Shown piece after piece: positions 3,246-13,635 of a DNA stretch of 34,715 bases (position 1 is the stretch's first letter; each line of letters starts with the position of its first letter). The notes under the pieces were generated by a model. The model saw only the letters and a list, made by a program, of their open reading frames with translations, had not been told where the DNA came from and did not search any database. The position numbers and the translations under genes were made by a program. The DNA lies in IMG/VR virus record IMGVR_UViG_3300044846_000829, positions 1-34,715 of that record; one strand, written 5' to 3'. The stretch is from a virus.

Positions 3246-4583
3246 TTATAATTTATAGTCTTCAAATGTGGTTGTTTCTCCAATAAATCTAATAGGTATG
3301 TTACCAGTCTTACCATGTCTGTTCTTTTCTACCTTAACTATAACAAGGTCGTCAGGATGATATTCCTTACCACCAATTTCTACAGGCTCTTTCATTTCGT
3401 AGTAAGATGGTCGCATAAGCATAATAACTATGTCAGCGTCTTGTTCAATACTACCAGATTCTCTAAGATCAGACAACATTGGTAGCTTGTCAGCCCTTTC
3501 CTCAACCTTTCTAGATAACTGAGATAAAGCAATAATTGGTACTTCCAACTCTTTGGCTAAGGCTTTAAGGCTTCTGCTTATAAAACTTACTTCCTGCTCT
3601 CGGTTTTGGTTTTGTTTGCCTTGTCCACTCATAAGCTGAAGATAGTCTAGGAATATTACCTTAATACCATACTTCTGCTTTAGAATAGTAGCCTTAGCTC
3701 TGAGTTGTGAGATACTGATTCCTCCAGTATCTTCTATGTAGATGGGTGCTGTGATTATTTTGTCATCGGTCTTTAAAAGTAGCTTACGTTCATAGTCATT
3801 CAAATTATTCGTTCTAAGGCGTTTTAAGGGCACTTGACTCGTTATTGACTCTAACCTTTCAACAAGCTGTTCGGAGCTCATTTCGAGGCTAAAAATAGCC
3901 GTAGGAACGTTATTTAGGATAGCTAAGTGATAAACACTAGAAAGCATCATTGCTGTCTTACCTGCACCAGGTCTAGCAGCTATAATACATAAGTCAGGTT
4001 TACACCATCCTGCTATGGTCTTGTTCAGTTCATCAAAACCAGTATTAAATCCTAAAAGCTCACCATTATTTGCTAAATCCCTAGCAAAGTTTATAGCCAT
4101 AACAACATCAGTTATGCTTTTTTCGTATAAGTTACCATATTCAAGTAAACCTATAAGTTGACTATTTAAGTCAGATAAAAGGTCTAATGACTGACTATCA
4201 TTGTCTAAACAACTATTCTCAGCTATTCTAAGTACTTTATAGGCTTCACGCTTTTTGTACATCTCAATAACAATCTCAATATGGGTGTTTATGTGAGCTG
4301 TTGTAGTTACATTATCAGTTAACTTTGATAAGTAGTAAGCACCACCTTCTCGTATTATGTCCTCATCTTGAGAGAGTTTTTGAGCTACAGTAGTAAGGTC
4401 TATAGATATGTTACTATCATACATTTCCTTAATAGCGTTAAAGATTTTTTGGTGCTTTAGATCGTAGAATATGTCAGTTTTTAGATGACCTATAACCAAT
4501 GGGATAATCCTTTTGTCTAAAAGCAATGCACCAAGTATGTTAGATTCAATATCTAAAGCTTTTGGTAGGTTTATAGCTATCAT
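3246..4583 (-). CDS. dnaB: Replicative DNA helicase, DnaB family
   Basis: The 445-aa protein is a full-length DnaB. The N-terminal helical domain (about 1-100) begins with the typical ALDIESNILGALLLD. The RecA-like motor follows, with Walker A ARPGAGKT at 203-210, Walker B VIFLDYLQLM at 309-318, the motif ALSQLSRKVEER at 352-363 and a C-terminal VEKNRHGKTG (418-427) arginine-finger region. As a hexamer it unwinds DNA ahead of the polymerase. It is flanked upstream by a DnaD-like protein that probably loads it. The start overlaps the preceding small gene by four bases. No primase or polymerase is encoded, so host enzymes must join it. Confidence 0.97.
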   Translation of the reverse strand: MIAINLPKALDIESNILGALLLDKRIIPLVIGHLKTDIFYDLKHQKIFNAIKEMYDSNISIDLTTVAQKLSQDEDIIREGGAYYLSKLTDNVTTTAHINTHIEIVIEMYKKREAYKVLRIAENSCLDNDSQSLDLLSDLNSQLIGLLEYGNLYEKSITDVVMAINFARDLANNGELLGFNTGFDELNKTIAGWCKPDLCIIAARPGAGKTAMMLSSVYHLAILNNVPTAIFSLEMSSEQLVERLESITSQVPLKRLRTNNLNDYERKLLLKTDDKIITAPIYIEDTGGISISQLRAKATILKQKYGIKVIFLDYLQLMSGQGKQNQNREQEVSFISRSLKALAKELEVPIIALSQLSRKVEERADKLPMLSDLRESGSIEQDADIVIMLMRPSYYEMKEPVEIGGKEYHPDDLVIVKVEKNRHGKTGNIPIRFIGETTTFEDYKL

Positions 4584-4786
4584 AATGTTTCTATTTCTTT
4601 TTTTACATTATTCCAAAATTCAATTTTAGATTGATATTCCCATGCAAGTTCAAATGGCTGAATTTCATCTAATATTTCATCTACTGCTATTAATACACAT
4701 TGTTTAGCATTAGCTTCGTAATCACATTCTCTGCAAGTAAATGACATAGATTCTAATAATTCTTCTGCTTTTTGTTTTGGTGTCAT
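4580..4786 (-). CDS. Small protein between loader and helicase genes, unknown
   Basis: The 68-aa product begins MTPKQKAEELLESM and contains CRECDY, AKQCVLIAVDEIL and a terminal NNVKKEIETL helix. Similar short proteins occur in many Bacteroidota phages, but I know of no function. Cysteines at about 18, 21 and 30 could bind metal but do not form a clear zinc finger. It overlaps the helicase start by four bases and touches the DnaD-like gene, so all three are translationally linked. Confidence 0.65.
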   Translation of the reverse strand: MTPKQKAEELLESMSFTCRECDYEANAKQCVLIAVDEILDEIQPFELAWEYQSKIEFWNNVKKEIETL

Positions 4787-5427
4787 TATTTAAGTTTTAT
4801 TTGTGTAGTTATTTTGTTTGTAGGTACGTTAGTAGTATTAAATTTAGAACTATTCCTTTGCCAAGTTCTTACAGTAGCTTTCCAATCTTTCATAGGGTTT
4901 TTACCTATTAACCAACCATTAGATTCATAATGGTCTATAAAGTAAGAAGGATCAAGAGTTAAAAAGCCTATTTCTTTAGCATATAAGTCTATCTCATTAG
5001 CTGTTGGTCTTATAAACTTAGTCTTCTTAATATTTAATTTACTATTAATTGTATTAGTATTACTTATAGGGGCACTTTCACCGACTTCGGCATTTATAGA
5101 ACTCGGTGATTTATCATCTCGGATTGCTGGTGTATCATATACTACATGATTCCATCCAGTAAACCTTCCAAGATCATTTATAACCTTTACAGACAAGATA
5201 TAGTTCTTTGTTTGTAATCCCTTAAAAACTCTGTCTAGTTGACCTTTAGTGCAACCTAATCGTTCATGTAGGTTAGTTTTATAAACCACCCAATCATGCC
5301 TCATACTAAGTAAGTAAATTAATAATCCTCTCTCCTCTAATGTTAACTCGACATTCCTAATAATCTCGTTGTCGATGGCAGTAAACTTCTCAGCCGATCT
5401 GCTCTTAACAATCATTCCTGTATTCAT
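4786..5427 (-). CDS. DnaD-like replication protein / helicase loader
   Basis: This 213-aa protein has an N-terminal winged-helix domain (about 12-95; ALTLEERGLLIYLLS-like helix, then HERLGCTKGQLDRVFKGLQ as the recognition region). A polar linker (about 105-140, rich in S, N, T) follows. The C-terminal region (about 150-195) contains FIDHYESNGW and MKDWKATVRTWQRN, the signature of DnaD/DnaT-type replication domains. Such proteins bind origin DNA or ssDNA and deliver DnaB. Its position directly upstream of dnaB supports this role. The ATG follows a terminator-like RNA hairpin and its U-run by only a few bases, so expression may be conditional. Confidence 0.8.
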   Translation of the reverse strand: MNTGMIVKSRSAEKFTAIDNEIIRNVELTLEERGLLIYLLSMRHDWVVYKTNLHERLGCTKGQLDRVFKGLQTKNYILSVKVINDLGRFTGWNHVVYDTPAIRDDKSPSSINAEVGESAPISNTNTINSKLNIKKTKFIRPTANEIDLYAKEIGFLTLDPSYFIDHYESNGWLIGKNPMKDWKATVRTWQRNSSKFNTTNVPTNKITTQIKLK

Positions 5428-5432
5428 AAAAT

Positions 5433-5484
5433 AAAAAAGCCCTCAGATTTGCGGGAGTCCGTACACCCCCACGCCTCTTCGGGC
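5433..5484 (-). ncRNA. Structured leader RNA / terminator-like hairpin before the DnaD-like gene
   Basis: On the minus strand GCCC (5484-5481) pairs with GGGC (5442-5439). A symmetric GA/GA step and AGA/TCT continue the helix, and an inner GC-rich stem (GCG-GGGG with CTCC-CGC, one bulge) caps it. Six T follow at once (5438-5433) and the start codon of the DnaD-like gene comes five bases later. It could be an intrinsic terminator with read-through, an attenuator, or a translation-controlling structure. Confidence 0.6.
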
Positions 5485-5519
5485 AATAAGTTTTAACTGC
5501 AAAGTACGGTTTGCATCGA

Positions 5520-5550
5520 CAAATATACTATTTATCCTTTACTATCCTAA
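5520..5550 (-). promoter_or_regulatory. Putative Bacteroidota-type promoter for the replication genes
   Basis: The minus strand carries a perfect TATATTTG (TAnnTTTG) box at 5527-5520. Nineteen bases upstream is TTAG, a 3-of-4 match to the -33 TTTG. A transcript starting about 5514 would carry the 5433-5484 hairpin in its leader and then the DnaD-like and helicase genes. Confidence 0.45.
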
Positions 5551-5740
5551 AAACCACATCTCTATTATTGTGCTTAAATTTCCTCTTTAGTAATGGGTTA
5601 AGTGATTTCTTTATTGAGTCTTGTGTTATTCTTGTATTCCTTGCTGCATGAGCTAAAGACTTAAACAATACTTCACTTTTATCATCAACATAAATCATCC
5701 TCACTGGTACTGAGTTCTCTAATCCTGCAATCTCCATCAT
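5528..5740 (-). CDS. NUMOD1-like small DNA-binding protein
   Basis: The 70-aa protein resembles the NUMOD1 helix-turn-helix found in homing nucleases. A short beta pair (VRMIYVDDKSEVLF) is followed by SLAHAARNTRITQDSIKKSL (about 28-47), where the SxxxAAxxxxIxxxSI spacing is characteristic, and ends with a basic strand NNRDVVFRIV. No nuclease domain is attached, so it may act as a stand-alone DNA binder or regulator. Its start overlaps the stop of the 38-aa membrane peptide upstream. Confidence 0.6.
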   Translation of the reverse strand: MMEIAGLENSVPVRMIYVDDKSEVLFKSLAHAARNTRITQDSIKKSLNPLLKRKFKHNNRDVVFRIVKDK

Positions 5741-5853
5741 ATATTCTTGAATTTACTAATTATGGTTAATGTTACAAATAGCAATATTGCTAGTGGTATA
5801 GATATTATTACAAACTTTGTAAGCTCGTATATAAATATTATCGTTTGTTTCAT
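5737..5853 (-). CDS. 38-aa single-pass membrane peptide
   Basis: The ORF starts MKQTIIFIYELTKFVIISIP and has one hydrophobic segment of about 20 residues (roughly 13-32) followed by a basic SKFKNI tail. The stop overlaps the next start as ATGA, the kind of coupling seen between real genes in this operon. The function is unknown. It may be a toxin-like or membrane-modifying peptide. Confidence 0.5.
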   Translation of the reverse strand: MKQTIIFIYELTKFVIISIPLAILLFVTLTIISKFKNI

Positions 5854-5864
5854 GTTTGTAGTTT

Positions 5865-5928
5865 AAAAAACCACCCCAAGTTTTTTATAAATTACTATCA
5901 GGTTATTAATATTGGTATCTTGAGGTGG
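5865..5928 (-). terminator. Terminator-like hairpin with long loop after the recombination genes' neighbour
   Basis: On the minus strand CCACCTCAAG pairs with CTTGGGGTGG over ten base pairs (one G-U) across a 38-nt AT-rich loop and is followed by six T. It lies directly after the stop of the 154-aa gene at 5939. The loop is long for an intrinsic terminator, so efficiency may be modest. Confidence 0.6.
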
Positions 5929-5938
5929 TGGAGGATTT

Positions 5939-6403
5939 TTATTTCTTTAAGCTAATCTTAAAGGTTGTTGTACTTATTCTAGGTGCTGGGTGGACCATCT
6001 CTCCTGATTCAGGATCAACCATAGCCATAGGCAATGTTCTAAGCATCTTTTCCCTTTCCTTTAAAGCAAACTTTAATGACTCTATTTCTTCATTCATTTT
6101 GCTCCAAGTATAGTCTTGGTCATAGATATACTTAACGCCTGATTCAAACTTAGCCATTTCGCTTCCTAAGACCTCAGCCTTGCCTCCGGGATACTTACTA
6201 AGCTCATCTAGTACTAAATCCTTTAAATCAGCTCTAATGCCCTCTAAAAGCTGTACAACAGCCTCTGACTTAACGAGTAGTTCTAATGGTGACTCACCAG
6301 TCTGCGTAAAGTGATCTACTATCTGCGACTTGATTAACTCAATAGCAAATTTGTTCGGTTCTATAGAACTAAGTTCTACTTTTGGTAATAATTGTAAACT
6401 CAT
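5939..6403 (-). CDS. Recombination-module accessory protein, coiled coil, unknown
   Basis: The 154-aa protein begins MSLQLLPKVELSS. It has a central helical, charged region (about 40-120, with YPGGKAEVLGSEMAKFESG at 71-89) likely to form a coiled coil. The tail HPAPRISTTTFKISLKK resembles the ends of proteins that accompany phage annealing genes. I cannot name a family with certainty. It sits one base after the putative annealing protein, implying a joint role in recombination or ssDNA handling. Confidence 0.65.
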   Translation of the reverse strand: MSLQLLPKVELSSIEPNKFAIELIKSQIVDHFTQTGESPLELLVKSEAVVQLLEGIRADLKDLVLDELSKYPGGKAEVLGSEMAKFESGVKYIYDQDYTWSKMNEEIESLKFALKEREKMLRTLPMAMVDPESGEMVHPAPRISTTTFKISLKK

Positions 6404-6404
6404 T

Positions 6405-7082
6405 TTATTTTAGGTTTTCTTTTTTCATTTTTAATACCTTCATCAATGTTTCATCAGAATCAAATGATTGCTTGTAAGTAAAGTATGTGTCAGTCAATTG
6501 CTTAACCTTAGTACATTTAGCTACCTCCATCATTATTTCTTCTCTTGTAGGCTCATCTTCTAAGATTTCAGCTACAACAGTTTGTACTGGCTTAGAGGTT
6601 TTTTTTGGCTCATCATGTACAAAGTCCATCTCTTCAGCAGGTGTCGCCTCGAATCCTGCCGCTTTCATCAACCATGCTAACTGATTACGGAATGCTTTAC
6701 CTACAGCTCTTGTTTGTGCCATAGATAAGATAGCATACTCATCAAAGAATTTTTTGCTACCCTCTTTGTTAGAGCATATTGCTATACCTACAGATACTAA
6801 CTTATTGTCTTGATATGATCTAACTTCGCAAGTAGCCATGTATTTAACTTCTGTTTCGCTAGATAAGTCTTGTACGCTTGTAATGATAGGGAATAATCCT
6901 AGTGAAGCTCCAGCCATCTGCCAGGCTTCTACATTACAATAGTCCTTACCCTTAATGTTAGATACTAAGTGTGCATCCTTTACAAAGCGTTTAAGCTCGT
7001 TAGATAAAGAAAGCATAGAGTCCTTGTTTACCATTTGGTAACTAGGAGCTTGAATTTGTGTGTTAGTTGTTTGCAGTTCCAT
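6405..7082 (-). CDS. Putative phage single-strand annealing / recombination protein
   Basis: The 225-aa protein has a compact core (about 15-150) with GKDYCNVEAWQMAGASLGLF, then beta strands YMATCEVRSY and VSVGIAICS. The helical motif EYAILSMAQTRAVGKAFRNQ (114-133) follows, then AAGFEATPAEEMD. This arrangement, with a conserved AxTRAxGxAxR helix, is typical of a widespread phage family placed near recombination genes and sometimes likened to ERF-type annealers. A charged linker and a helical C-terminal domain (about 175-225) complete it. The assignment is by resemblance and position; direct activity is inference. Confidence 0.5.
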   Translation of the reverse strand: MELQTTNTQIQAPSYQMVNKDSMLSLSNELKRFVKDAHLVSNIKGKDYCNVEAWQMAGASLGLFPIITSVQDLSSETEVKYMATCEVRSYQDNKLVSVGIAICSNKEGSKKFFDEYAILSMAQTRAVGKAFRNQLAWLMKAAGFEATPAEEMDFVHDEPKKTSKPVQTVVAEILEDEPTREEIMMEVAKCTKVKQLTDTYFTYKQSFDSDETLMKVLKMKKENLK

Positions 7083-7260
7083 GTGTTAATTGATTTTGTT
7101 GTGTAAAAAAAGTTGCTTTTCTAATTGGATATTGTTCCCACATTTTAACTATAGCCTCCATAGTTTCAAAACTTGATTGGCTGTAGCTCATGTTGTGGAT
7201 GATTTTTGCGACAAAGATTCTTTTGTCTGTTTCGTTTAAGTGTGCGAATTGTGATAGCAT
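7063..7260 (-). CDS. Small protein of the recombination module, unknown
   Basis: This 65-aa protein is not recognised. It has a helical N-terminal half (LSQFAHLNETDKRIFVAKII) and a polar, glutamine-rich C-terminus. It overlaps the start of the putative annealing gene by 20 bases and follows the DnaA-domain gene closely, so it belongs to the same translational unit. Confidence 0.6.
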   Translation of the reverse strand: MLSQFAHLNETDKRIFVAKIIHNMSYSQSSFETMEAIVKMWEQYPIRKATFFTQQNQLTHGTANN

Positions 7261-7265
7261 AATGT

Positions 7266-7640
7266 TTAGTTTGATGTTAAAATATTTAGTTTTTTGTTGT
7301 TTGTGTGCAATCCTAATGTTTGTTGTACCTCTTGAAACTGAGTCTTATAAAACTTGATGCATTCTATATCGTTTTGGAATGTCATGATTCCATGTATGAT
7401 TGTAGTATGATCTCTGTCAAAAGCTTGACCTATCTCCTTTAATGTCATCGAAAAATAACGTCTAAAAATAAAGTAGCACATATTCCTAGCAAAAACTAAT
7501 TGCTTACTTCTGTTTGGCGTAAGTACTTTTAGTCTATCAGCTTTCATTACATCACATACCGTTCTTATAACTTGCTCAAATCTTATCTCTCTGTGTTTTA
7601 GTCCTGGCATAACGTAATAGCTTATTTCTGATGCTCCCAT
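7266..7640 (-). CDS. Stand-alone DnaA domain IV (origin-binding) protein
   Basis: The 124-aa protein matches only the DNA-binding C-terminal domain of DnaA. Residues about 40-105 read VLTPNRSKQLVFARNMCYFI, then MTLKEIGQAF, then the DnaA signature DRDHTTIIHGI at 75-85, the residues that read DnaA boxes in cellular DnaA. There is no AAA+ ATPase or DnaB-interaction domain. It could mark the phage origin, recruit host DnaA or the phage loader, or compete with host DnaA. It lies with recombination and replication genes. Homology is clear; the precise role is inferred. Confidence 0.85.
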   Translation of the reverse strand: MGASEISYYVMPGLKHREIRFEQVIRTVCDVMKADRLKVLTPNRSKQLVFARNMCYFIFRRYFSMTLKEIGQAFDRDHTTIIHGIMTFQNDIECIKFYKTQFQEVQQTLGLHTNNKKLNILTSN

Positions 7641-7819
7641 ATTTGGTTTTTAAGTAGTTCAAGTTTTTTGTCATAGAATGTTTTGATTAACTCGGTCATC
7701 TCGTAATCATTGTTTTTAAGTCTTGTTTCTATTACATAACGACTATAGCCTGTTATTTCCATAATCTTCTTCATGTCGCCATACTTAAATAGGCTTTTGT
7801 AATCTGTAATCTCTAGCAT
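7622..7819 (-). CDS. Small HTH-like protein
   Basis: The 65-aa product contains GDMKKIMEITGYSRYVIETR (about 14-33), which has the helix-turn-helix pattern (helix, glycine turn, SRYVIETRL recognition helix), followed by an amphipathic C-terminal helix. It overlaps the DnaA-domain gene by 19 bases. A DNA-binding regulator or replication accessory protein is plausible; no family is recognised. Confidence 0.6.
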   Translation of the reverse strand: MLEITDYKSLFKYGDMKKIMEITGYSRYVIETRLKNNDYEMTELIKTFYDKKLELLKNQIWEHQK

Positions 7820-8052
7820 TTGTTTGTGTTTTTAAAGTGATTGATATGTCTGTCTATTCCTTGAACTGCTGCATCTAAAGAAGCGTAATAACTTGCTCTC
7901 CAGTAATACCATTTGCCATGTAGGATTTGGTTATCCCATGTTATAAACATCCCTTTATAGGTGTATTGTTTTGACATTCTTCCGTTACTGTTTACATAGG
8001 TAAACTCTTCTTTGATACCTTTTTTCTTTTGTTCGAGGGTTAGTTTCAGCAT
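7813..8052 (-). CDS. Small basic protein, unknown
   Basis: The 79-aa protein has a lysine-rich start, a beta-rich middle with several aromatic residues (GKWYYWRASYYASLDAAVQG, about 46-65) and a helical HINHF end. The pattern suggests a small alpha/beta domain; I do not recognise it. It is preceded by an A/C-rich leader (AAACCAA) and overlaps the downstream gene by seven bases. Confidence 0.6.
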   Translation of the reverse strand: MLKLTLEQKKKGIKEEFTYVNSNGRMSKQYTYKGMFITWDNQILHGKWYYWRASYYASLDAAVQGIDRHINHFKNTNKC

Positions 8053-8063
8053 TGGTTTGGTTT

Positions 8064-8270
8064 TTACTCTTGCGAGGGTTTTTGATAGATTTTTGTTTCT
8101 AGGACTTCTGTAATCCTTAATGGAATACCATTACTTAGTTTTTCAAAGATGGCATAAGCTTCATCCTTATCCTTGTTAAATGATCCACTAATGATGATAC
8201 CTTCTTGCTTTGTGTAGTACATTGTACTACCTAAAATTAAGTCTGTGTCTTGTACAAATTCGAATTTCAT
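8064..8270 (-). CDS. Small acidic protein, unknown
   Basis: The 68-aa protein is not recognised. It has a beta-rich first half (MKFEFVQDTDLILGSTMYYT) and a helix around DKDEAYAIFEKLSNG. It looks like a compact alpha/beta fold without obvious catalytic residues. The start follows AACAAACAAAC, the leader type typical of this arm. Confidence 0.6.
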   Translation of the reverse strand: MKFEFVQDTDLILGSTMYYTKQEGIIISGSFNKDKDEAYAIFEKLSNGIPLRITEVLETKIYQKPSQE

Positions 8271-8281
8271 GTTTGTTTGTT

Positions 8282-8404
8282 TTATTGTTTAATAATAGTT
8301 TCTTCTTCTTCATCTTCTTCCCAATCGCAATGTTCTAAGCAGTCAGGACAAATATCTATTTCAGGATAGTTGGTATGAGCTCCACAGCAGGTTGAGAATG
8401 GCAT
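8282..8404 (-). CDS. 40-aa zinc-ribbon-like protein
   Basis: The product starts MPFSTCCGAH and continues DICPDCLEHCDWEEDEEEE. Cysteines at 6, 7, 19, 22 and 26, with CPDC as a knuckle, suggest one zinc-binding site, followed by a strongly acidic tail. Short CC-GA...CPxC proteins of this kind are common in phages. They may bind host proteins or nucleic acids, but no function is established. The stop lies 11 bases before the next gene's start. Confidence 0.6.
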   Translation of the reverse strand: MPFSTCCGAHTNYPEIDICPDCLEHCDWEEDEEEETIIKQ

Positions 8405-8601
8405 TACTTATTAAGTTTTTGGAGTCTAGTAAAGTAAGTTTTTGGATCACCAATCTTGGCTTGGCTCATGTTCCTTTCGTATTCTACAGGATGAATGCAG
8501 GTTTTTGTCTGATGGTTGTAATAGGCTTGTTCGCCTTTGTCGATGATCGTGCCAGTAATACCGCACTTCATCTTTGAGTTGAGTGTGATTAATTCGTGCA
8601 T
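8404..8601 (-). CDS. Small early protein with cysteine/histidine pair, unknown
   Basis: The 65-aa form begins MHELITLNSKMKCGITGTII and contains one further Cys-Ile-His (TKTCIHPVEY). It resembles short phage proteins with a minimal treble-clef-like metal site. I prefer the ATG at 8601 because ACAAACAAAACAAAAAACCC precedes it, like other starts here. The frame stays open back to 8832, but that extension encodes only a low-complexity K/P/N-rich peptide over the T-tract array. A 142-aa product cannot be excluded. Confidence 0.5.
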   Translation of the reverse strand: MHELITLNSKMKCGITGTIIDKGEQAYYNHQTKTCIHPVEYERNMSQAKIGDPKTYFTRLQKLNK

Positions 8602-8937
8602 GGGTTTTTTGTTTTGTTTGTAAAGTGTAAAATTAGGAAGTTTTTGGATATATTTAAAGTTTTTAGCAGGTTTTTTGTTAAGGAAATCATAAAAGATTTT
8701 TGCTGGATTTTTGCGTACAAGATTTTTGCGAGGTTTTTGTGGGGTTTTTGCATAGGGTTTTTGGCAGATTTTTGGCTGTAACTGAAAAGTAGTTGCACAT
8801 TTAACTAGCTTTTGCCAATTTGCATAGGGCAAAGCATAGCTAAAAGGCTTTTTAAGGCACTTTTTAGGCTTAAATTTCGCTTATATTATTTAGTTAGTAT
8901 AGACATACCAACCGCAAATAAAGTGGCTAAAAACGTC
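8602..8937. other. Probable gene-free region with phased T-tract array
   Basis: Between 8641 and 8774 the plus strand has T5 or T6 tracts starting at 8641, 8660, 8671, 8697, 8708, 8723, 8734, 8745, 8758 and 8769. Most steps are 11 bases, and TTTTTG recurs. Phased A/T-tracts bend DNA. The stretch 8775-8937 shows no convincing gene on either strand. The region may be an origin, a regulatory site or a spacer. Confidence 0.55.
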
Positions 8938-9015
8938 TTATTTTGCTATTTTATCAATAGCTGCATAAATTGCGGCTATTATATCTGGCAAAGTTTCTTT
9001 TGTACCTTTTATCAT
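8938..9015 (-). CDS. 25-aa microprotein
   Basis: The ORF reads MIKGTKETLPDIIAAIYAAI and then DKIAK. It is an amphipathic helix with no membrane span. It is short enough to be chance, but its start has the context CTAATACAATG, shared with the genes starting at 10405 and (as CAAATACAATG) at 10159. It also lies ten bases after the stop of the 47-aa gene. Function unknown. Confidence 0.4.
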   Translation of the reverse strand: MIKGTKETLPDIIAAIYAAIDKIAK

Positions 9016-9025
9016 TGTATTAGTT

Positions 9026-9169
9026 TTACTTTGCTAAATATTCAGCCCATCTTTGAGCCTCTCTTTTTGCATCATCATAACTTTTGAATGATTGCTCTAT
9101 TAATAGTTTGCCAGTGCTTTTATCAATGACATAAAAAAAGCCACTGTAAGAGGTAATTTTGTAGCTCAT
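9026..9169 (-). CDS. 47-aa small protein, unknown
   Basis: The product starts MSYKITSYSGFFYVIDKSTG and ends KREAQRWAEYLAK. The pattern of two beta strands followed by a helix resembles short phage proteins that carry one beta-beta-alpha unit. The start is preceded by ACCAAAAACAAAG, the leader type of this operon. It follows the hairpin at 9194-9211 on the transcript. Confidence 0.55.
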   Translation of the reverse strand: MSYKITSYSGFFYVIDKSTGKLLIEQSFKSYDDAKREAQRWAEYLAK

Positions 9170-9188
9170 TGCTTTGTTTTTGGTTAAT

Positions 9189-9211
9189 ATAAAAGCCCAA
9201 ATTAATGGGCT
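9189..9211 (-). terminator. Rho-independent terminator-like hairpin
   Basis: On the minus strand AGCCCA and TGGGCT form a 6-bp stem around TTAATT and are followed by TTTAT. It lies 37 bases after the stop of the 303-aa gene and may separate the promoter-proximal early genes from the rest. Confidence 0.6.
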
Positions 9212-9247
9212 CTTATTTCGCTGAATTTAACAGCTCATCAGTTAACC

Positions 9248-10159
9248 CTACAAAACAGCCACAATATTTTTAATTTCTGTCATGGGTATTTTATGACAGC
9301 CTACAGAAACAATTTCGCCAACTACTCCGTTAAATGTGTATCTATCCACGTGCTGACCTTTTATAAGCTCGTTATTAATTAGACGTTGATAAGCTGACAA
9401 AAACAAGTCTTTTGACATTTTTACGCCTCCGCTTGTCTCAATATTGTCCGTTTCTTTGTTGTATCTTAATAGATAGTGCCCCAAATTTGCATAAATTGAT
9501 GATATTTTAAATTGACGGAAAGCCTCAATTTTTTCCTTTGCGTCCTCTTTTGCTTTTTCCAGTGCTTTTAGGTCATTTTGCTTTTTTCTTTCTTGCCATT
9601 TTTTTAGCTCATTTGAGCTATAGTATTCAACATTCCACGAAATCAATGTGTTGTATCTTTCTTGTAATGTCAAACCATTGCCTAAAATAGGATTAAATAG
9701 GTCAAATGTGTCTATATTAAAAAATTCGCAATATTTCTCAATAATGTCTATTTGATTTTGGAACTGGTTTAAATAGCCCATTTTTAATTTATTAGCCCTA
9801 ATTGTTAAACCTTGCAACCTTTCGGCCTCGTTTATGTAATGGGTTATATTTTCTTTATGTGTACTTGTTGCATAGTTTATATCATTATAAAATGATACAA
9901 CTCTAAAAAATGGTACATTTTCTGGAATTGACCTCCATACAAGGTTTTGATGTTTGTTTGTAGTATTTGAATAGCTCCTATCGTTAAAAAATATTGCCTT
10001 TTGTTCCTCTTTGTTTGTAATGTGTTGGGCTATTTTAAAATGATAACCATACGAATAGATACTATCGTATTCAAAAAACATAGATGACCCTTTGCCATGT
10101 GTTTGAGTCTGATTGGCCCAAACGTGTGTAAGTTCTGAATTGTTAAATTTTGTTCTCAT
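9248..10159 (-). CDS. Conserved phage/plasmid protein of unknown function (VWA-Q / MFFE-IYSYG-HF family)
   Basis: The 303-aa protein opens with LTHVWANQTQTHGKGSSMFF (10-29), EYDSIYSYGYHFKIA (30-44) and then NDRSYSNTTNKHQ (59-71). This N-terminal pattern is found in many phage and mobile-element proteins of unknown function (VWA.Q, FFE.D.IYSYG.HFPIA, SYS.TT.KH). The middle is helical and lysine/glutamate-rich (about 185-215), likely a coiled coil. The C-terminal end is a small beta-rich domain with HVDRYTFNGVVGEIVSVGCH. It is an early gene near the divergent promoter region. Similar proteins are suspected in host takeover, but nothing here shows an activity. Confidence 0.75.
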   Translation of the reverse strand: MRTKFNNSELTHVWANQTQTHGKGSSMFFEYDSIYSYGYHFKIAQHITNKEEQKAIFFNDRSYSNTTNKHQNLVWRSIPENVPFFRVVSFYNDINYATSTHKENITHYINEAERLQGLTIRANKLKMGYLNQFQNQIDIIEKYCEFFNIDTFDLFNPILGNGLTLQERYNTLISWNVEYYSSNELKKWQERKKQNDLKALEKAKEDAKEKIEAFRQFKISSIYANLGHYLLRYNKETDNIETSGGVKMSKDLFLSAYQRLINNELIKGQHVDRYTFNGVVGEIVSVGCHKIPMTEIKNIVAVL

Positions 10160-10186
10160 TGTATTTGTGTTTTGTGTGTTATAGGT

Positions 10187-10405
10187 TTATGGGTTTAATT
10201 CCTTTCTTTTAATTATCCTAGTTGGATAGCCAGTCATTTTATATTCGTGATAGTCATGCTTTAAATTACTTATATATACGCCATTGACTAAATCAAAATC
10301 TAAACCGTTGCCTTTGCTATCTGTTAAATATACAGAATTGTCCTCCCACCCAAAACCATAGTTTTGTTGAATAACCGCTAAATATGTGTATTTGTTTTGT
10401 GTCAT
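10187..10405 (-). CDS. Small early protein with YLAVIQQNYGFGWED motif, unknown
   Basis: The 72-aa protein is beta-rich: a first strand YLAVIQQNYGFGWED (8-22), then a central NGVYISN and a basic end RIIKRKELNP. Short proteins with a QxNYGxGWED strand often accompany the larger MFFE-IYSYG family protein encoded just downstream, hinting at a shared role. The start has the AATACAATG context. Confidence 0.6.
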   Translation of the reverse strand: MTQNKYTYLAVIQQNYGFGWEDNSVYLTDSKGNGLDFDLVNGVYISNLKHDYHEYKMTGYPTRIIKRKELNP

Positions 10406-10416
10406 TGTATTAGGTT

Positions 10417-10635
10417 TTATTTGTTTATTACTCGATATTGAGAATACTTAAAAAATTGAGCTAATCTTTCGGCCTCCTCTTTTTCAAAAAATTGCAAAGC
10501 CTTTTTTTTGTCTGTTGTTATATGCTCAACATAAGTATTAATAGCCCCGTTTTTAGGGTTATTTATAGTTATATTTTCATGATATGCAATTTCAAATGCT
10601 CCGTTTACTTTTGTTTTTATTTTTATTATATACAT
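10417..10635 (-). CDS. Small early protein, unknown
   Basis: The 72-aa form (MYIIKIKTKVNGAFEIAYHE) has a beta-rich N-terminus and a helical basic C-terminus containing KEEAERLAQFFKYSQYRVIN. I chose the ATG at 10635, preceded by AACTTAAAAAC; a longer reading from 10677 would overlap the 35-aa upstream gene. The pattern (beta strands, then EAERLAQFF helix) resembles short phage proteins of unknown function. Confidence 0.55.
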   Translation of the reverse strand: MYIIKIKTKVNGAFEIAYHENITINNPKNGAINTYVEHITTDKKKALQFFEKEEAERLAQFFKYSQYRVINK

Positions 10636-11130: not shown

Positions 11131-11186
11131 AACTGATTGATTTTTAATTGGTTAAGTGTTTTTGTTGTTGTTTTGTGTCCCATTGA

Positions 11187-11218
11187 CAAAACGAATATAG
11201 TATTTAAATCAATACAAA
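11187..11218 (-). promoter_or_regulatory. Putative leftward early promoter
   Basis: On the minus strand TTTG (11218-11215), a 20-base spacer and TCGTTTTG (11194-11187; 7 of 8 to TAnnTTTG) match the Bacteroidota promoter layout. A start near 11182 would give a leader of about 50 bases to the first early gene. Confidence 0.5.
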
Positions 11219-11296
11219 ATGCAAATAAATATAAATAATTGTAAAAATATTTAAATAGTTTATTTAGGTATTCGGTTAAATGGGTATTTAAGTAGC

Positions 11297-11390
11297 TACT
11301 ATTATAGTATCCATTGTTGAATTAGTAATTTAATACTATATTATAATAGAATAATACTATTGTAATGTTCTTATACTATTATAGTATAAG
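11297..11390. repeat. Repeated AT palindrome TACTATTATAGTAT
   Basis: The 14-mer occurs at 11297-11310 and 11374-11387. The second copy is the core of a longer palindrome (11370-11390) with perfect 10-base arms around one T. Degenerate relatives start near 11333 and 11354. Paired palindromes of this kind suit an operator pair or origin iterons. Confidence 0.65.
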
Positions 11391-11526
11391 TAGTATATTA
11401 ATATAATAAGATCAATGGGTTTTACTTTTTGCGTTTCAGTGCCTTTCCAATCATTAAATAATAAGTTCTAATTTAGCGGACACACTAACCGAAATTTGAC
11501 GCATGAATAACAAAGCAAAGCAGCAT

Positions 11527-11540
11527 ATAATATATATTAT
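11527..11540. repeat. Perfect 14-bp AT palindrome
   Basis: ATAATATATATTAT is its own reverse complement. It lies midway between the repeated palindromes and the terminase gene and could be an operator, but low complexity makes chance plausible. Confidence 0.35.
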
Positions 11541-11642
11541 GTTAAATAGCAACCCCCTACCCTATTTTTTAGCGTAGATAATAGGGGAGACCCCTTGTGC
11601 CCCCCAATATTCTGATATAAAACAATGATTTTAACATTTTTA

Positions 11643-11650
11643 AACATTTG
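11643..11650 (+). promoter_or_regulatory. Possible rightward late promoter box
   Basis: AACATTTG matches TAnnTTTG at 7 of 8 positions and ends 20 bases before the small-terminase ATG, close to the 16-18 bases seen for better matches at 13649, 18662 and 20018. No clear -33 TTTG is present. Confidence 0.3.
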
Positions 11651-11669
11651 ACACACCAAAAGGTATAAT

Positions 11670-12498: not shown

Positions 12499-13635
12499 AT
12501 GAATGTAACCACAAACATCGTCTTCGAAATCCTGCAAAACAGCCAAAAAAAAATATCAGTTATGCAAGGCGGAACAAGGTCTGGCAAAACTTACAATGTA
12601 TTGACTTGGTTTATCGTGAAATTATTACAAGAGAAGGGAAAAACCCTAACCATTTGCAGATCCTCGTTGCCATCCATAAAAGGCTCAGTGATGAGAGACT
12701 TTATCGAAATACTATCGAAATATGGATTATACTCAGAAGAAAAGCACAACAAATCAGAAAATCTTTACTTCTTAGGAGGCAATGTCGTAGAGTTCGTCTC
12801 TACCGATCAGCCACAAAAAATAAGAGGTCGTAAAAGAAACTACTTGTTTATAAACGAGGCTAACGAGGTAAACTATGAATCTTGGATGCAGTTAGCGTTA
12901 AGAACCACAGAAAAGATTGTAATTGACTATAACCCATCCGATTATTATTCTTGGATTTATGACAAGGTTGTTCCTAGAGAAGATGCTGACTTTACCATCA
13001 CTACCTACCTAGATAACCCATTTCTTGAAAAATCAATTGTAGATGAGATTGAGAGGCTTAAAACAGCCGACCATGAATATTGGAGAGTTTATGGCTTAGG
13101 AGAGAGAGCAATATCCCAAGCGACCATTTATACGCATTGGAAGCGTAGAAGGAACTTCCCTGATGGAGGAGATGTGTTTTATGGACTTGACTTTGGCTTT
13201 AACAACCAAACAGCACTTGTTAGGGTTAAGAACTTCGATGGCGAGTTATTTGTCGACCAATTAATCTACGATACCAAAATGTCGACTGCGTTACTAATCG
13301 ATAGGATGCGTTCTTTAGGACTTGATAGAAATTCTGAGATATATGCCGACCCTGCTGAACCGAAAACCATATCGGAAGTTAATAAGGCAGGATTTAACTT
13401 GAAGAGTGCTGTGAAGGATGTTTATGCAGGAATCAACAAGGTAAAATCATTTCCTTTGCATATCAGGTCAGAGTCCTTAGATTTGCTTGATGAGATTAAA
13501 AACTACAAGTGGAAGACCGATACAGATGGTAATACACTTGATGAACCTGTGAAGTTTCGAGATCACTTAATGGACTCTATGAGGTATGCCATATACACAA
13601 AATATGCGAAACCTAAAAGAGGGTGGGTTGTATAG
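12499..13635 (+). CDS. terL: Terminase large subunit
   Basis: The 378-aa protein has both motor and nuclease domains. Walker A is GGTRSGKT (24-31), Walker B is YLFINEAN (115-122), and the coupling region is IVIDYNPSD (140-148). The RNase H-like nuclease has GLDFGFNN (D231), YADPAEPKT (D284) and the final acidic helix DHLMDSMRYA (355-364). It pumps DNA into the prohead and cuts the concatemer. The start lies 271 bases past terS, after the hexamer cluster. An A9 tract at 12545-12553 sits in the coding sequence just before the Walker A motif. Confidence 0.97.
   Translation: MNVTTNIVFEILQNSQKKISVMQGGTRSGKTYNVLTWFIVKLLQEKGKTLTICRSSLPSIKGSVMRDFIEILSKYGLYSEEKHNKSENLYFLGGNVVEFVSTDQPQKIRGRKRNYLFINEANEVNYESWMQLALRTTEKIVIDYNPSDYYSWIYDKVVPREDADFTITTYLDNPFLEKSIVDEIERLKTADHEYWRVYGLGERAISQATIYTHWKRRRNFPDGGDVFYGLDFGFNNQTALVRVKNFDGELFVDQLIYDTKMSTALLIDRMRSLGLDRNSEIYADPAEPKTISEVNKAGFNLKSAVKDVYAGINKVKSFPLHIRSESLDLLDEIKNYKWKTDTDGNTLDEPVKFRDHLMDSMRYAIYTKYAKPKRGWVV

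Follow-up and report, generated by a model that had tools for sequence, protein, structure and literature searches.

A cluster of short direct repeats at the head of the replication operon of an uncultured virus is tentatively regarded here as a multi-site protein-binding array in the control or origin region of that operon, a reading to which we would give nearly an even chance, and a stand-alone DnaA domain-IV protein (DnaA-C) is the most likely candidate for its ligand. What was observed directly in the sequences compared is that the repeated boxes are present, conserved, set at this place and found together with the dnaA-C gene. The DNA analysed (34,715 bases, called the window below) is an IMG/VR virus record, in which early genes are read leftward between approximately 1 and 11 kb and packaging and structural genes rightward between 12 and 34 kb. 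The array is intergenic and lies ahead of the leftward replication operon, about 100-172 bases upstream of the first ATG of the operon in the window. The features referred to are as follows:

3246-4583, minus strand: DnaB helicase, in the replication operon downstream of the array
4786-5427, minus strand: DnaD/initiator-like protein, in the replication operon downstream of the array
5939-6403 and 6405-7082, minus strand: two proteins without assignment, in the replication operon (whole remainder 3246..7082)
7266..7640, minus strand: stand-alone DnaA domain-IV protein (Bac_DnaA_C, 124 aa; Pfam PF08299, E 3.9e-17), candidate ligand of the array
8404..8601, minus strand: conserved 65-aa gene, the first to follow the array in the window
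8602..8694, minus strand: AT-rich leader, which holds three tracts, a promoter-like TAATTTTA (by eye) and an A-rich AACAAAACAAAAAACCC before the ATG
8695..8774, minus strand: core array of seven direct CAAAAAYC copies, retained by 155 of the 168 family loci
8777..8797, minus strand: inverted repeat beside the array, TGCAACT N7 AGTTACA (TGCAACT N7 AGTTGCA in many relatives)
8798..9025, minus strand: noncoding stretch rich in palindromes, reaching to where the upstream gene stops, its layout kept and its sequence varying in relatives
12499-13635: terminase large subunit

The preliminary description had reported ten T5-6 tracts with a recurring TTTTTG core between 8641 and 8774, and both observations proved to be real. 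The tracts start at 8641, 8660, 8671, 8697, 8708, 8723, 8734, 8745, 8758 and 8769, and G follows nine of the ten. Such a density is far above chance: when the dinucleotides of the entire window were shuffled 300 times, the densest 134-base stretch contained at most six tracts (six in 2 of the 300), and 2000 shuffles restricted to the region never gave more than eight. On the minus strand, the repeat unit is an asymmetric CAAAAAYCY box. Seven of the 15 CAAAAAYC words present in the window fall within 8695-8774, all of them on the minus strand, with starts (plus-strand coordinates) at 8695, 8706, 8721, 8732, 8743, 8756 and 8767, that is, 11, 15, 11, 11, 13 and 11 bases apart; the remaining three tracts (8641, 8660 and 8671) are looser and lie in the AT-rich leader that precedes the 65-aa gene. 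With seven boxes in a single main cluster, the array has the arrangement by which iterons are recognized, direct repeats clustered once per replicon.

Relatives of the region were collected among viral sequences by three routes: 34 loci by a DnaA-C protein search, 108 stretches by the DNA pattern, and 133 stretches encoding a relative of the 65-aa protein, of which the best 80 were used. Loci encoding at least two early proteins of the window were taken as the family, which comprised 168 of the 221 sequences (the window and 220 loci); several of the 108 pattern stretches, carrying 12-bp repeats inside long open reading frames or other unrelated repeats, were set aside as non-family. At least three boxes occur in 155 of the 168 family loci, corresponding to 109 distinct arrays, which is the better count because several loci share one contig. 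Among the 13 array-less family loci, several are cut off upstream or have looser boxes.

The low-complexity open reading frame on the minus strand is mechanical and runs into the real 65-aa gene starting at 8601. To the frame test were admitted 42 loci with at least four boxes near this gene, and seven were dropped for want of an ATG at the aligned start; in 26 of the remaining 35 relatives an in-frame stop separates the array from the ATG, and the nine open ones include the window and its near relatives. Box spacing modulo 3 is also mixed (237, 113 and 83 cases with remainders 2, 1 and 0, respectively), and a protein-coding repeat was rejected on both counts. Since the boxes are kept in relatives and the peptide is not, the proposal that this region is selected as DNA rather than as peptide holds, and the converse case, of relatives keeping the frame while losing the tract phasing, was not the picture observed. 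Conservation of phasing rather than peptide in relatives had been named as a check, and the relatives compared keep neither.

Helically phased, intrinsically bent DNA, with curvature itself as the signal, was the idea put forward at the outset, and we now find it very unlikely. Starts mostly 11 bases apart were claimed, and five of the nine spacings do have this value; the whole series (19, 11, 26, 11, 15, 11, 11, 13, 11), however, includes others. At a period of 10.5 bp the ten tracts give a resultant length of 0.36, which random positions (mean 0.28) reach 28% of the time, and the seven boxes give 0.26; the best fit is at about 12 bp (0.70). For the 85 relatives that have five or more A5 tracts, the 10.5-bp resultant averaged 0.317 vs 0.392 for permuted spacings, observed phasing exceeding the permuted spacings in 15 of the 85, and spacings of 13, 15 and 17 are common in relatives. 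Curvature prediction with a wedge model did place the window array among the approximately 9% most curved 134-base stretches. On the other hand, in 85 arrays of at least 66 bases the end-to-end ratio (lower meaning more curved) was 0.874 vs 0.852 in unit-order shuffles and 0.606 in ideally phased arrays. The arrays are slightly less curved than such shuffles, and strong static curvature as the selected property is not supported. Phased bending was therefore rejected by the phasing and curvature controls.

The spacings show another bias. Distances of 11, 13, 15 and 17 bp were counted in 303, 154, 30 and 26 cases among the relatives, and those of 10, 12, 14 and 16 bp in 17, 10, 8 and 2 cases; in the window and the 109 related arrays, linkers of 3, 5, 7 and 9 are far commoner than those of 2, 4, 6 and 8, so that the spacing is mostly 11 plus an even number. 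This bias towards odd-length linkers may reflect few events.

Within the arrays, the box is constrained as a sequence. A-runs (of at least three) are exactly five long in 620 of 683 cases in arrays vs 1113 of 8958 in the DNA 400-3400 bases downstream, an excess that is partly by construction because the arrays were found with an A5 word. Position +7, which was not part of the search, is a pyrimidine in 99% of the 230 distinct units. When the 11 distinct seven-box arrays sharing the layout of the window were compared (A5 and the first two pyrimidine positions being required), only 4 of 28 box-edge columns varied, all by C/T changes only, and 5 of the 6 varying linker columns were not transition-only; codon third positions of the neighbouring gene varied in 27 of 65 columns (10 of these 11 arrays).

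The candidate ligand of the array is DnaA-C. In a profile comparison it matched 1j1v, a domain-IV entry and DNA complex (E 2.2e-16), and the 124-aa protein matches DnaA over domain IV only. A protein search yielded 63 DnaA-C loci (58, with 22 known close relatives left out, and 5 more; several contigs were already in the family), and an array is present in 38 of these loci, which had been found by the DnaA-C protein alone. As a control, 167 permuted motifs were used: 131 of them gave none, and the maximum was 6 loci once five motifs were excepted that are overlapping registers of the box word itself (17-28 loci). With the strict motif, the other 25 of the 63 loci show no array, although in about nine the upstream sequence is too short to contain one. 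In a negative set, DnaA-C was found in 0 of 119 loci among the matches listed from a genome-collection pattern scan, three genomes of which were followed individually.

All of the most distant array loci, which were recognized by the DNA pattern (L081, L089, L091, L103, L114 and L090), encode DnaA-C nearby, with the array on the opposite strand and at most about 350 bases from dnaA-C (L081 in another layout). In four of these deep loci the array lies between the 3' end of a gene for an 830-aa protein, which by eye looks primase/helicase-like, and dnaA-C, about 46-225 bases upstream of the latter. Protein clustering of 12 records (the window, ten others and the L114 fragment) revealed DnaA-C as the only protein present in 12 of 12, across clades with DnaB and the initiator or with the 830-aa protein instead; the DnaB, 225-aa and 154-aa proteins of the window clade are absent from the deep records, and the 65-aa gene is shared in part, 4 of the 11 longer records lacking it. 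The box sequence is held while DnaA-C diverges to approximately 30% identity, and the linkers are non-identical. One deep record, L418 (genome G017), encodes a DnaA-C that shares 85% identity with the L103 protein and has a similar control region, and there is no box pair in its 34.4 kb; the array is therefore dispensable there, and the pairing of DnaA-C with the array is not strict. The control region of the deep clade (L089, L091, L090, L103 and L418) contains more short repeats, of the AATCGCGTACC type and TTGATTATCAA, some of which are kept even where the array is absent.

R52 and H78, presumably the residues contacting canonical DnaA boxes, are invariant in DnaA-C, and CAAAAAYCY is unlike the canonical TTATNCACA. 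Canonical TTATNCACA boxes are not enriched near the 109 arrays, and the array as a cluster of canonical DnaA boxes was rejected. The exact TTATCCACA does not occur in the window; it occurs beside the array in L089 and L114, which count as one case because both loci are near-identical. A bolder proposal would be that an orphan phage DnaA domain IV has switched to a new 9-bp box and that an array of about 4-9 boxes forms a portable initiation or control module working with unrelated replication proteins (DnaB and the DnaD-like initiator, or the 830-aa protein); we consider it possible but doubtful.

The orientation of the arrays bears on whether the boxes could act in RNA, as a transcribed A-rich leader, for instance an unstructured translation or antitermination leader. 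In 37 of the 38 loci the array is upstream of dnaA-C and on the same strand, the exception being L417 (on the L103 contig) with the opposite strand, so in the window clade the arrays face the operon, and A-rich sequence does precede start codons. In the deep clade, however, the A-strand of the array is opposite to dnaA-C and therefore not an mRNA leader of that gene, and no gene lies close ahead on its own strand; an Rfam scan gave nothing above the gathering score. We regard action through RNA as quite improbable.

Next to the array, the DNA contains further elements of potential control function. Of 75 relatives, 46 (22.9 expected) carry an inverted repeat with arms of at least 5 within the 40 nt preceding the array, and in the 165 nt upstream of the arrays inverted repeats with arms of at least 6 number 1.29 vs 0.74 in shuffles (75 relatives). 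This excess fits a regulatory or an origin region, not telling which, and the stems upstream of the arrays, varying in sequence with a constant layout, could be covarying hairpins. In the leader, TAATTTTA is by eye promoter-like, of the Bacteroidetes -7 type; a sigma-70 scan found nothing in 8602..8694 and its result was below chance. The leader adjoins the array in the window, genes intervene in several relatives, and in some relatives the leader block precedes other inserted first genes. In many relatives small cargo genes separate the array from the 65-aa gene (a protein with no PHROG or Pfam match), the array remaining at the upstream end. A near-identical A-rich leader (AACAAAACAAAAAACCCATG) was seen in the window at 8602-8622 and in L008, L019, L021, L171 and L215 before different inserted small genes, as if small-gene cassettes were exchanged at this short boundary. 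In L156, about 200-400 bases downstream of the array, a tRNA-like cargo sequence (by eye) separates the array leader from the 65-aa gene. Elsewhere in the early region, a phosphoadenosine phosphosulfate reductase-like gene was noted at 1586-2425 (PHROG E 1.1e-49).

That the boxes are an operator or enhancer only, at which a host or phage regulator switches the early operon, with replication initiated at another place such as the palindrome-rich gap at 11.1-11.7 kb, has a lesser but real chance of being correct. An orientation-independent site would be expected to behave as the array does, being located upstream of the operon ATG in the window and, with flipped orientation, upstream of dnaA-C in the four deep loci; the gap between the divergent operons carries repeated TACTATTATAGTAT palindromes, and phage Apl/Xis proteins bind direct repeats at early promoters with a spacing of 10-11 bp (PMC7498355). 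However, in relatives such as L204 and L215 a gene starts about 25 bases past the final box and the leader block is absent in between; the promoter is putative, and the sigma-70 scan was below chance. The gap itself (11131-11669) contains repeated AT palindromes, among them two of TACTATTATAGTAT and copies related to it, and is another origin candidate; relatives such as L364, L365 and L405 have similar TA-rich stretches.

A separate problem is the source of the arrays. When 149 genomes of one Bacteroidota order were scanned, the three-box pattern was detected in a single one and in none of the 148 others; in that genome the reversed control was as frequent (7 against 10), and the looser two-box pattern was above its control (87 against 29). 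A host origin of the arrays was rejected on the rarity of the three-box pattern and its control. The genome concerned, a Saprospiraceae MAG (G011; L422-L433), carries scattered noncoding YAAAAACC tandem repeats of 10-11 bp and is the sole such genome among the 149. Slippage repeats at a variable gene-insertion site, that is, a neutral minisatellite or recombination junction, would agree with these scattered repeats, with the differing cargo genes just downstream of the array and with its absence from L418; constancy of the box throughout the divergence of DnaA-C, linkers that are not identical and the absence of the pattern from the 148 other genomes argue against it, and we judge it improbable. 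GC skew at third codon positions was -0.114 upstream vs -0.021 downstream of the array (downstream higher in 46 of 57 related loci); the two values have the same sign and the comparison is confounded, and it was not taken as origin evidence.

Among isolated phages, positions 7000-10500 had no DNA match in 50,697 phage records, the 65-aa protein had none and DnaA-C gave weak matches only; no paper describing the array was found among open-licence PMC papers. The host is probably a member of Bacteroidota, as judged from leader sequences and distant terminase matches. The upstream 303-aa protein was found in 0 of 395 Bacteroidota genomes when copies as prophage were sought, an empty result that is uninformative with no positive control.

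In the multi-site binding array that we tentatively favour, a sequence-specific DNA-binding protein would occupy the CAAAAAYCY boxes side by side, in one direction per array. The array is at the operon head, by palindromes and an AT-rich leader. Its occupation would most likely govern the start of replication (as origin iterons), the firing of the operon (as a multi-site operator) or both. The gene for the putative ligand, DnaA-C, belongs to this operon and in distant relatives is a neighbour of the array. Protein binding, the ligand and an effect on replication or transcription are what we infer from sequence comparisons; the earlier suggestion of an origin or control element is plausible. 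If the pairing holds, it would provide a defined cis site for early replication start in a large group of uncultured phages with probable Bacteroidota hosts, and show clearly that the DNA-binding domain of DnaA can be redirected to another sequence. It would also caution that a conspicuous series of A/T tracts may be a set of binding sites and not a tuned bend.

Known systems resemble the array in part. Like iteron origins of plasmids and of phage lambda, it groups repeated sites in a replication operon, in direct orientation as plasmids do and, in the window, by AT-rich DNA; however, its boxes are 11-17 bp apart and off helical phase, its initiator is putative, and it is absent from the close relative L418. 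With the DnaA boxes of bacterial oriC it shares clustered asymmetric 9-bp boxes and a DnaA domain-IV protein encoded nearby, whereas the box is CAAAAAYCY, not TTATNCACA, and the 124-aa phage protein matches domain IV only. In operators of the phage 186 Apl or lambda Xis type, an early control region carries seven direct repeats at a spacing of about 10-11 bp (PMC7498355). The array has seven direct repeats too, but with spacing varying among 11, 13, 15 and 17, of which 11 is the commonest, and an Apl-like protein was not identified among the part of the window proteins scanned. Finally, Bac_DnaA_C has been described on TnpA-REP-type transposases with nearby repeats not matching the DnaA box (PMC6006769). 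The combination of DnaA-C with repeats other than DnaA boxes is common to both systems, although here the protein is a stand-alone phage protein and the repeats are direct, not inverted.
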